A DNA stretch of 46,245 nucleotides from Parafilimonas sp. (lineage in GTDB: Bacteria > Bacteroidota > Bacteroidia > Chitinophagales > Chitinophagaceae): assembly GCA_019247895.1 (NCBI GenBank), contig JAFBAF010000299.1, positions 1 through 46,245 of the forward strand, read 5' to 3'. The notes under the pieces were generated by a model. That model did not search any database and was not told the origin of the DNA. It saw nothing but the letters and a program-made list of their open reading frames with translations. The position numbers and the translations under genes were made by a program. Shown one piece after another: positions 18,400-38,709 of the stretch (positions within the stretch are counted from its first letter, which is position 1; each line of letters starts with the position of its first letter).

Positions 18400-18474
18400 G
18401 GAGAATGATGGGTCTCGAACCCACGGCCTTCAGTGCCACAAACTGACGCTCTAACCAACTGAGCTACACTCTCC
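18400..18474 (-). tRNA. tRNA-His (anticodon GTG)
   Basis: Cloverleaf read on the minus strand. Acceptor GAGAGTG pairs with CATTCTC; the encoded extra 5' G (G-1, 18474) faces C73 (18400), the hallmark of tRNA-His. D stem GCTC/GAGC, anticodon stem TCAGT/ACTGA with loop TTGTGGC (anticodon GTG at 18439-18437), T stem GTGGG/CCCAT with TTCGAGA loop. CCA is not encoded. A run of six T follows shortly after the 3' end on that strand. The 390-base gap from 18230 to 18619 holds only this gene and its promoter; nothing else was seen in it. Confidence 0.97.
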
Positions 18475-36493: not shown

Positions 36494-37681
36494 ATGTATT
36501 TTCAAGTTCAATTGCCATATATGAAATCCAATCTTGAAAAGAAGAAAACCGAAAACAAATATGTTTTATTGAAAACGTCTCTGTCACAGCAACGATTATA
36601 TTCATTAGATGCCCTGCGCGGTTTTGATATGTTTTGGATAATGGGAGCCGAAGAAATTTTTCATAAATTATCTGATGCAACGGGTTCTCCTTTTTGGAAT
36701 GCAATAGCATTGCAGTTCACGCATCCGGATTGGAATGGTTTTCATTTTTATGACTTGATCTTTCCTTTGTTTTTATTTCTTGCCGGTGTGGCAACACCTT
36801 ATTCTGTTGGCAAAGAATTAGAAAAGGGAAAAAGTAAAAGTGAATTGTTATGGCGTGTGATGAGACGTGGATTGATCTTAATTGTGCTTGGTATTATTTA
36901 TAATAATGGGCTTGCTATTAAACCAATATCGGACATACGTTTCGGAAGCGTACTGGGCAGAATTGGATCGGCGTACATGTTGGCAAACATTATTTATTTA
37001 TATGCAAGCAAGCGTAGCCAGATTATTTGGTTTTGCGGTTTACTGATTGGTTACTGGTTTGCAATGACGGTAGTGGGTCATGCGCCTGGTTATCCTCCGG
37101 GCGATCTTACCATGCAGGGCAACTTAGCTTCATGGGTTGACCGTGAAATAATGCCTGGCAAATTGTATTTAGGCATTCATGATCCTGAAGGATTGTTTTC
37201 AACTATTCCTGCAATTGGTACGGGGCTGCTTGGAATACTCACAGGTGAATTTTTGAGAACATCAACTTTAGCCGGTGTTCAAAAATGCCTGCGTATGGCA
37301 ATTACCGGTGCTGTATTTATTGTACTGGCTCAACTATGGAATTTCAATTTTCCTATAAATAAAAACTTGTGGACAAGCTCATTTGTACTGCAGGTTGGCG
37401 GAATCAGTTTATTACTGCTTTCATTATTTTATTATGTGATTGATGTGAAAGGTTATAAAAGCTGGGCATTCTTTTTTAAAGTGATAGGTATGAACTCCAT
37501 TCTTATTTACATGTCCGGACATTTTATTAACTGGGAATTTGCCAACAACAGTTTGTTTGGCTGGCTCGGCACATTGACCGGCAATCCTTATAATGCAGTA
37601 GTGCTTGCTGTAACTTTCGTTTTTGTAAAATGGTTATTCCTTTATTTTATGTACAGGCAAAAAGTTTTTTTGAGGGTATGA
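36494..37681 (+). CDS. HGSNAT/DUF5009-type membrane acyltransferase
   Basis: 395 residues with about 10 hydrophobic segments. The hallmark YSLDALRGFDMFWIMG (37-50), HPDWNGFHFYDLIFPLFLFLAG and the FxxVIGMNSILIYM-like segment near 325 place it among bacterial homologues of heparan-alpha-glucosaminide N-acetyltransferase (COG4299/DUF5009). These transfer acetyl groups from cytosolic acetyl-CoA to sugars across the membrane. ATG 36494 is used; ATG 36521 is an alternative. Followed by the accessory pocket holding the small RNA. Confidence 0.86.
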   Translation: MYFQVQLPYMKSNLEKKKTENKYVLLKTSLSQQRLYSLDALRGFDMFWIMGAEEIFHKLSDATGSPFWNAIALQFTHPDWNGFHFYDLIFPLFLFLAGVATPYSVGKELEKGKSKSELLWRVMRRGLILIVLGIIYNNGLAIKPISDIRFGSVLGRIGSAYMLANIIYLYASKRSQIIWFCGLLIGYWFAMTVVGHAPGYPPGDLTMQGNLASWVDREIMPGKLYLGIHDPEGLFSTIPAIGTGLLGILTGEFLRTSTLAGVQKCLRMAITGAVFIVLAQLWNFNFPINKNLWTSSFVLQVGGISLLLLSLFYYVIDVKGYKSWAFFFKVIGMNSILIYMSGHFINWEFANNSLFGWLGTLTGNPYNAVVLAVTFVFVKWLFLYFMYRQKVFLRV

Positions 37682-37729
37682 AACAATAGGCAGCTAATTA
37701 TAGTTTGATCAGTATATTTTAATGGGCTA

Positions 37730-37761
37730 TTTATTATTTTCACCAACAAAGTTTACCTTTG
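37730..37761 (+). promoter_or_regulatory. Candidate promoter of the small RNA
   Basis: TACCTTTG (37754-37761) is a perfect -7 element of the Bacteroidota consensus, with TTTA 20 bases upstream (37730-37733). Transcription would start around 37767, about 22 bases before the ATG of the 15-codon ORF. Confidence 0.6.
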
Positions 37762-37788
37762 TAACTCACTAAAGAAAAGGAGGTATTC

Positions 37789-37836
37789 ATGCAATCTACA
37801 GATTCATCATGGAAGCCTTCGGTTGGTATCGCCTAA
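37789..37836 (+). CDS. 15-codon ORF with strong Shine-Dalgarno inside the small RNA
   Basis: ATG 37789 to TAA 37836 encodes MQSTDSSWKPSVGIA. AAAAGGAGGT (37775-37784) is placed 5 bases before the ATG, an unusually strong ribosome-binding site for Bacteroidota, whose genes rarely use one. The ORF's 3' half forms the left side of the long hairpin. A second overlapping frame, ATG 37809 to TAA after 28 codons, has no such site and runs into the terminator. Whether either is translated is unknown. Confidence 0.4.
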   Translation: MQSTDSSWKPSVGIA

Positions 37837-37877
37837 CCGGGCTACTTCATCGAAATATCTGCTCCGAAAGCGGAGAG

Positions 37878-37905
37878 AGCCATTACAAAATGTAATGGCT
37901 TTTTG
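37878..37905 (+). terminator. Terminator of the small RNA
   Basis: Perfect 10-bp stem AGCCATTACA / TGTAATGGCT with an AAA loop, followed directly by TTTTG. Confidence 0.9.
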
Positions 37906-37978
37906 ATTTAATAGTGATCCTATTGCTTATCATAAAATGGCTTAAAAATTGCACGATTAGCACATAACCGGTTTATGA

Positions 37979-38308
37979 ATGCAGTACGTTACATCTCAAA
38001 AAGTATATACCAAATCGATTAGAGTTCCGGATACATTGCGCGGGTTTAAAGTGCATATCTCAAAAAAACATGCGTTGCTTATTTTAAATAACATGACATC
38101 AGCGCATACGCTAATGTTATATGGGGATGATAATGCCTGTTGCTATTTTATTATTTCTAATTCAGACTCTCTTTTATTCTCATTTATGGTTAATACATAT
38201 AATGCTCCCTATGAAATTGTACCTGTCGATGATATTAACTGCCTGTATAGCACTCATAAAGTTTATAGCATGCCCGGCAATAATCAACTTGCCAATGTAT
38301 TATCTTAG
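37979..38308 (+). CDS. Hypothetical small protein (109 aa)
   Basis: ATG 37979, no recognised domain, signal or membrane segment. The product is mixed alpha/beta with hydrophobic strands (KHALLILNNM, CCYFIISNSDSLLFSFMV) and several cysteines. It follows the small-RNA terminator by about 75 bases. Coding status is uncertain: length and lack of overlap with any better frame favour a gene, but no homologue comes to mind. Confidence 0.4.
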   Translation: MQYVTSQKVYTKSIRVPDTLRGFKVHISKKHALLILNNMTSAHTLMLYGDDNACCYFIISNSDSLLFSFMVNTYNAPYEIVPVDDINCLYSTHKVYSMPGNNQLANVLS

Positions 38309-38427
38309 AACAACTTTTGTATGCGTGAGAAATCTTCCTGTATAATACTCAGCTAACTGGTATTTCTTTTGCTTTATTTACATTCTTTTTGCTGCGCAAT
38401 TCTTTAAGATTTATAAGCAACACCAGG

Positions 38428-38709
38428 ATGACCCAACAGTTTACCACGCAACAACAAATTAATGCTCTTGAAAAAAGCATTATGCTGGAAAGATATAAAT
38501 ACACGCTGGCTTTGGAAGACGGCCAACCTAATAGCTGTTTAGAAGCGATCGGGTACAAGATCAATAAACTAATGCTGATATTAAGATTTTTGAATATTGT
38601 ATGCGCAAAAAATACAGCTTCGATTGTGTGGAAACAAATCGAAATTGTGGATAATAATAGTCATAACACTTATCCCGAGAAAGTATTGGAACAACTGTAT
38701 GAATTATAA
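38428..38709 (+). CDS. Hypothetical helical protein (93 aa)
   Basis: ATG 38428 is preferred over an upstream TTG (38389). Predicted largely helical: QQQINALEKSIMLERYKYTLAL and a hydrophobic helix KLMLILRFLNIVC. No family recognised. The 234 bases from its stop to the isoaspartyl peptidase at 38944 show no gene or clear signal. Another 71-codon frame on the opposite strand overlaps it and is less convincing. Confidence 0.4.
   Translation: MTQQFTTQQQINALEKSIMLERYKYTLALEDGQPNSCLEAIGYKINKLMLILRFLNIVCAKNTASIVWKQIEIVDNNSHNTYPEKVLEQLYEL

Follow-up and report, generated by a model that had tools for sequence, protein, structure and literature searches.

A candidate free-standing RNA of the Chitinophagaceae with a perfect Shine-Dalgarno sequence and a short reading frame set in alternative hairpins

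Layout of the unit

In the window, by which we mean the whole stretch of 46,245 nucleotides analysed here, a first-pass annotation made from the letters alone had placed a structured small RNA between an acyltransferase gene and two orphan ORFs. Neither the ORF called an acyltransferase (36494-37681) nor the downstream ORFs (37979-38308 and 38389-38709) gave a Pfam match at E 0.001. The four elements described for the RNA, a -7 box, a bulged hairpin, a tetraloop hairpin and a terminator, are all seen in the sequence, on the plus strand. The -7 promoter element TACCTTTG (37754-37761), recognised from the sequence and from homologue counts, is of the TAnnTTTG type, which is the -7 consensus. It is followed by an A-rich leader, UCACUAAAG (37766-37774), where the invariant or nearly invariant columns of a 30-sequence alignment start and where we place the putative 5′ end of the RNA. 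The next segment, AAAAGGAGGTATTC (37775-37788), corresponds to an extended Shine-Dalgarno (SD) sequence, AAAAGGAGGUAUUC, which complements the 16S 3′ tail GGAAUACCUCCUUUUU of relatives, as judged from their tails and from duplex energies. An ATG at 37789 then opens a 15-codon ORF, MQSTDSSWKPSVGIA, which ends with a TAA stop at 37834-37836 (37789-37836 in all). The perfect SD and the ORF had both been absent from the first-pass annotation.

The long bulged hairpin, called fold B below, spans 37799-37861 and consists of the stems CAGAU/AUCUG, AUGGA/UUCAU, AGCC/GGCU and CGGUUGG/CUAACCG, with the stop codon atop its 3′ strand. It is followed by the CTCCG-AAAG-CGGAG hairpin (37862-37875), found in both sequence and fold; at this place most of the first 30 loci carry, by eye, a differing GC-rich hairpin, and L022 carries none. 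An intrinsic terminator with an AAA loop and a U-tract closes the unit (37876-37904). A simple terminator scan returned none in 37690-37930, and folding of 37766-37905 does give the terminator hairpin; we think that the scan probably extended the stem into the U-tract. The predicted folds of 37730-37915 and 37766-37905 have z values of -4.9 and -4.7, each below all 200 dinucleotide shuffles. As had been claimed, GC content is higher in the hairpins (0.46) than in the 100 flanking bases on each side (0.29 and 0.32).

A sigma-70-type promoter scan of 37690-37930 gave a single minus-strand site, at chance level. Of 99 distinct homologues (defined below), 97 have a TAnnTT[TGC] box at 20-42 nt before GGAGG, a count made without shuffled control. 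The distance is 25-26 nt in 74 of the 99 (exactly 25 nt, as in the window, in 59) and 30-33 nt in 18, and no clear -33 element was found upstream of the 99. A hairpin with a T-run occurs within 75 nt downstream in 95 of them, also without shuffled control. The anatomy of the unit is well supported; on this comparative evidence it is a candidate RNA gene that stands alone, about 140 nt long and presumably transcribed.

Distribution and genomic context

Rfam 15 at gathering threshold, run over the whole window, matched only a tRNA at 18400-18473. Permissive thresholds applied to the RNA region gave chance-level matches only, the best (E 0.92) being a CRISPR repeat model that matched the terminator on the opposite strand. 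This agrees with the earlier failure to place the RNA in a known family, and no previous description of it was found in a literature search outside most subscription journals.

A DNA search matched 35 of 147 family genomes; two of these (G044 and G146) match the terminator end only and are not counted, which leaves 33 carriers. A covariance model built from 30 loci of this search found the RNA in 97 of 394 genomes of the Chitinophagaceae, a family of soil bacteria, belonging to 34 of 101 genera, in 10 of 198 genomes of an order sample, three of them from a second family, and in 2 of 395 genomes of a class sample, both of the window's family and one of them the window's own. These samples are not disjoint, and Infernal was run with its stricter filters in each search. 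A homology search across Chitinophagaceae, of the kind proposed with the first-pass annotation, yields homologues with abundant compensatory changes, and it is conservation, in 97 of 394 family genomes, that decides that the unit is real.

Two sets of sequences were drawn from the covariance-model matches. The ORF set comprises 101 matches from 100 loci, which come to 99 distinct sequences; the second family supplies four (L063, L065, L066 and L067). L116 (G382), a weak match, was left out of the 100 loci, as were L034, L036, L037, L044, L046, L049, L051, L052, L054-L056 and L059-L062 as repeated places. The set used for covariation of fold B comprises 103 matches, including two decayed hairpin copies from L070, and gives 101 distinct rows.

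The RNA is present once per genome, except in G213 (two copies, 960 bases apart) and G515 (two). Both copies in G213 (L084, 1501-1603 and 2461-2563, minus strand) are complete, and the ORFs between them include one that is cupin-like by eye. In L070, on the minus strand, a complete copy is followed by two tandem extra copies of the hairpin (1145-1202 and 1325-1382), which have neither SD nor start and look decayed. About three quarters of the family genomes lack the RNA, which makes it dispensable. Four of the eight listed genomes of the window's genus carry it and four do not, complete genomes (G007 and G107) being among the latter. Carriers have larger genomes, with a median of 5.5 versus 3.85 Mb (33 versus 114 genomes of the 147-genome sample; sizes rounded, kinship ignored).

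An exact pattern gave at least 119 matches in contigs of named genomes. Among the matches listed are genomes of Chitinophaga, Niastella, Puia, Segetibacter, Pinibacter, Cnuella, Flavisolibacter and Ferruginibacter and a Parafilimonas MAG, and 116 of those listed carry an ORF of 14-15 codons. The remaining ones of the listed 119 are L165, a MAG in which a premature stop at codon 6 leaves 5 codons, L203, cut by the end of the locus, and L204, an unrelated protein-coding gene of Clostridium. Canonical copies also occur, among the matches listed, in records titled Beijerinckiaceae (L194) and Flavobacterium (L208); the former title is probably wrong and the latter may be. Viral contigs searched with the exact pattern gave no match, nor did phage and plasmid records searched by blastn, so that we see no sign of mobility. 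A looser pattern, AAAGGAGGTRTT-N0-4-ATG, used for analogues elsewhere in the class, matched 58 of 295 genomes; among the 28 loci read, L365 and L371 are superficially alike. L365 was rejected as an analogue, being found at full length only in itself, with a 28-base match to its terminator end elsewhere (2 of 16 genomes).

Within 1.5 kb of the first 30 loci, neighbours are common only to L015 and L016, of the same genus, with one gene also at L022; an apparent match between neighbours of L005 and L023 is an ORF lying over the RNA itself. When 101 loci were compared, 32 had no neighbour common to another locus. Many of the others are linked within genera (for example L011, L072, L075, L076, L080, L082, L085, L090 and L092), and some links between genera run through common or repetitive families or through spurious ORFs over the RNA. 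The place of the RNA thus appears to be kept within genera and to be mostly different between them. Of the 99 loci scored, 56 have their nearest downstream ORF on the strand of the RNA and 43 on the other strand, and the conserved same-strand downstream gene expected of a cis leader was not found. Because neighbours mostly differ between genera and the downstream ORF can lie on either strand, the RNA is not an ordinary leader, which is what the first reading of the locus had held.

The short frame and its two folds

A short ORF in frame behind the SD is present in all 99 distinct covariance-model sequences, with start, frame and stop kept. The first in-frame stop gives 13, 14 and 15 codons in 1, 14 and 84 of them, the stop being TAA in 77, TAG in 14 and TGA in 8, and in all 99 it is enclosed by the predicted long hairpin. 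Where this hairpin has been rebuilt, as in L110, L113 and the L029 group, the stop is still enclosed. Insertions and deletions within the frame either span a multiple of three bases, as do the three-base deletions in L007, L013, L020, L025, L030 and others, or are compensated. In genus g5 a one-base loss is offset by a one-base gain, early in L094 and later in L017, L095, L096 and L098; compensation in L105, of the same genus, is similar to the later-gain route. The compensated frameshift in L096 and L098 has altered the N-terminal half to MSLQHIHGKPSVGIA, with the nucleotides kept. The spacing from the stop to the AUCUG motif, taken modulo 3, is spread over 32, 28 and 32 sequences (92 of 99 scored, the motif being unrecognised in 7).

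The encoded peptide behaves differently from the frame. In the 79 ORFs of canonical layout, used for both counts that follow, codon positions 1, 2 and 3 have mean entropies of 0.58, 0.64 and 0.59 (kinship ignored), and the distinct single-base variants comprise 38 non-synonymous and 14 synonymous ones, where 98 and 28 would be possible. W8 is invariant in these ORFs and S7, V12 and P10-S11 are common; the conserved residues mostly lie where the nucleotides pair in one of the two folds described below, or in both. As all codon positions vary alike, the peptide seems not to be selected; non-synonymous changes show no clear depletion, and the frameshifted g5 members also speak against such selection. 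Selection therefore acts on the start, the frame, the stop and the nucleotides, with none detectable on the peptide when kinship is ignored. An overlapping frame starting at an internal AUGG was considered and rejected, being closed by GGTTAG or GGTTAA in many homologues (by eye).

Two folds compete for this region. Fold A, the RNAalifold consensus of 30 sequences, is an SD-sequestering hairpin (37779-37820) in which GGAGGUAUUCAUG (37779-37791) pairs with CAUGGAAGCCUUC (37808-37820). In 99 rows, 97.6% of its cells are paired, and changes occur on one side only because the SD strand is nearly invariant. In 95 of 99 sequences GGAGG has at least four of its five bases paired, compared to 45% of composition-preserving shuffles; where the partner strand is altered (L021, L027, L028 and L030), most of the SD is still paired in the predicted hairpin. 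In fold B, 88.1% of cells are paired versus 24-42% in slid controls (101 rows, the alignment being fitted to fold B), and 17 of 21 pairs show changes on both sides. Cells with double changes number 134, compared to 40.7 in shuffles, none of 500 reaching as high (kinship ignored). Five pairs of fold B are unpaired in 22-45 of the 101 rows.

Since both folds use CAUGGAAGCC, they cannot coexist. The difference E(A)-E(B) has a mean of +2.4 kcal/mol and ranges from -7.4 to 8.8; the two lie within 5 kcal/mol in 88 of 99 sequences, B being better in 87 and A in 12, where the energy of fold A is approximate (hairpin plus separately folded remainder). The best predicted fold in the window is B. Fold A hides the SD and the start, whereas fold B leaves both outside the main hairpin; the open state is only relative, because weak local pairs often engage part of GGAGG even in sequences whose best fold is B (30 sequences). 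The first-pass picture of a structured RNA holds for its hairpins and its autonomy, but as a purely structural picture it is incomplete, since a conserved start, frame and stop follow a perfect SD.

A proposed ribosome address and its possible use

The 16S 3′ tail was searched in 12 genomes, eight of which gave GGCTGGAATACCTCCTT: the carriers G004, G055, G085, G213 and G288 and the non-carriers G014, G022 and G119. The tail patterns matched nothing in G000, G009 and G141 and only an unlike site in G106; the window genome's own 16S (G000) was not found with the patterns used, a stricter one included. Eight 16S copies from seven relatives all end 3′ in GGCUGGAAUACCUCCUUUUUAGAG. The tail beyond GGCUGG is single-stranded, as follows from the known helix 45, and AAAAGGAGGUAUUC is a perfect SD, complementary to the whole of this free tail in relatives. 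The SD:tail duplex is predicted at -22.2 kcal/mol in the window; with one common 14-nt tail, RNAduplex gives -17 to -18 kcal/mol in all 99 sequences (median -18.0). All of them are below the -13 kcal/mol that marks an extended SD, with energies from RNAduplex and not from the program of the paper cited below. AAAAGGAGG is found in 99 of 99 sequences and AAAGGAGGTATTCATG in 97. The 5-nt gap between GGAGG and AUG suits initiation.

A ribosome address is thereby suggested for the RNA, on comparative grounds. According to PMC9976891, ribosomes of Bacteroidia normally bury the 16S tail in a bS21-bS18-bS6 pocket, bS21-less ribosomes expose it, those of F. johnsoniae favour extended SDs, and the rpsU (bS21) leader of Bacteroidota is autoregulated by bS21-less ribosomes. 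For Chitinophagales, the sections of that paper covered here report ribosomal protein genes only; annotation would probably miss a frame of 15 codons anyway.

The pattern AAAGGAGGTAT-N1-8-ATG gave 69 matches in 32 genomes versus 16 for the reversed pattern (summed over the genomes). Its sites include the RNA in 25 of 25 carriers, in 10 of which it is the only one; in six genomes (G004, G060, G068, G071, G098 and G104) there are exactly two, the RNA and rpsU. Other strong-SD sites exist, G006 reaching the highest count with 7 matches. In the window's genome, AAAGGAGGTGTTTTATG (L236, G000:C5:8921-8937) lies upstream of a 343-aa ORF whose product resembles a type IX secretion protein of the PorP/SprF kind.

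The rpsU leaders of 70 genomes show a weaker predicted pairing, with a median of -15.7 kcal/mol versus -18.0 for the RNA. A strong rpsU SD is present in 24 of 32 carriers and in 29 of 38 non-carriers (Fisher p = 1). The carriers here are 32 of the 33 in the 147-genome set (G048 gave no rpsU match); the non-carriers are 38 of 108 with an rpsU match, chosen partly as best family scores and partly by hand. SD strength being alike in the two groups, these counts reveal no tie between the RNA and rpsU control and do not support the idea of the RNA standing in for a missing rpsU SD. The rpsU of the window's genome, at G000:C137, has no SD (-5.4 kcal/mol). All three examined genomes of the window's genus have rpsU without a strong SD (L251 in G000, L260 in G107 and L305 in G007), unlike most of the 70 sampled genomes.

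We propose a standalone RNA switch that is gated by translation and addressed to ribosomes whose anti-SD is exposed, such as bS21-less ones, a proposal that we regard as evenly poised between right and wrong. The 5′ leader would direct the RNA to ribosomes whose 16S 3′ tail is exposed. When such ribosomes are absent, the RNA would hide SD and AUG in fold A or stay in fold B. An exposed-tail 30S subunit would pair over 13-14 nt and favour the open state, then translate the 13-15 codons up to the stop within the fold-B hairpin, which would melt. Because frame and stop are kept and the peptide is not, engagement and transit of the ribosome would themselves be the useful event. A ribosome-read RNA would be the simplest account of the tail match, the hidden or open start, the frame without a selected peptide and the stop inside a hairpin together. 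Conservation, structure, frame and tail complementarity emerge from comparison of sequences; transcription, translation of the micro-ORF and the bS21 link are inferred.

The likeliest output would be at the RNA level: the data suggest that the RNA may sense or trap a special class of ribosomes, as a sensor or decoy of tail-exposed ones, possibly in competition with rpsU mRNA. In its fuller form, which we put forward tentatively and consider somewhat less than probable, a standalone sensor or decoy of ribosome composition would be switched by exposed-anti-SD 30S subunits and act in trans on ribosome supply or bS21 feedback. It would respond to a lack or displacement of bS21, as might arise under stress or through a phage-encoded bS21, and switching would occur through pairing of the whole tail and translation of the micro-ORF irrespective of its peptide.

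The main rivals are a micropeptide gene and a pure sponge. Were the unit a small mRNA or dual-function RNA, a functional peptide of 13-15 aa would be made under control of the SD hairpin; the conserved start, frame and stop would be expected, as would the invariant W8 and the common S7, V12 and P10-S11 of the canonical ORFs. These residues fall largely on nucleotides paired in either or both folds, however, and the even variation of codon positions, the 38:14 ratio and the altered N-terminal half in g5 make this unlikely in our view. Complementarity that spans the free tail and recurs so constantly is also what a leader sequestering the anti-SD of 30S subunits or their precursors would show, with the ORF incidental. 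An incidental ORF leaves unexplained the frame-preserving or compensated indels and the stop kept in rebuilt hairpins, and the gap between GGAGG and AUG fits initiation, as is generally known; a sponge of this kind strikes us as improbable.

That the RNA is an ordinary antisense sRNA acting in trans, with a conserved leader that would pair with target mRNAs, is a much fainter prospect: the free-standing unit, its terminator and its conserved 5′ leader would suit it, but the 16S tail already accounts for the SD part of the leader and the conserved frame is left unexplained. To an attenuator or riboswitch leader of a downstream gene we give hardly any credence, since its attenuator-like traits, two competing folds and a terminator, are met by downstream ORFs on either strand (56 same, 43 opposite), by neighbours mostly differing between genera, and by a terminator stem outside both alternative folds.

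If the switch reading is true, specialised ribosomes would have in the RNA a second client, with a stronger predicted tail match than the rpsU leader and present in many genera of another Bacteroidota family; it would be selected for being translated and not for the product encoded. Like the rpsU leader, it has an extended SD complementary to the 16S 3′ tail, and the rpsU SD of many relatives is AAAGGAGGTAT, the same letters as in the RNA. Unlike rpsU mRNA, it encodes no ribosomal protein, bS21 included, and has an ORF of 13-15 codons inside alternative hairpins and its own terminator. We call it a candidate new RNA family, and a new variation on SD-addressed control, because it shares the address of rpsU but is not rpsU, bears no mark of peptide selection and has no consistent gene in cis.

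Spot 42, SgrS and RNAIII are dual-function sRNAs that work through a specific peptide, base-pairing targets or both. The RNA resembles them in being small and autonomous, with a short ORF and an SD, and differs in that its peptide bears no sign of selection. As with the leader peptides trpL and ermCL, translation of a short ORF could choose between alternative folds; unlike these attenuators, the RNA has no consistent downstream gene in cis.
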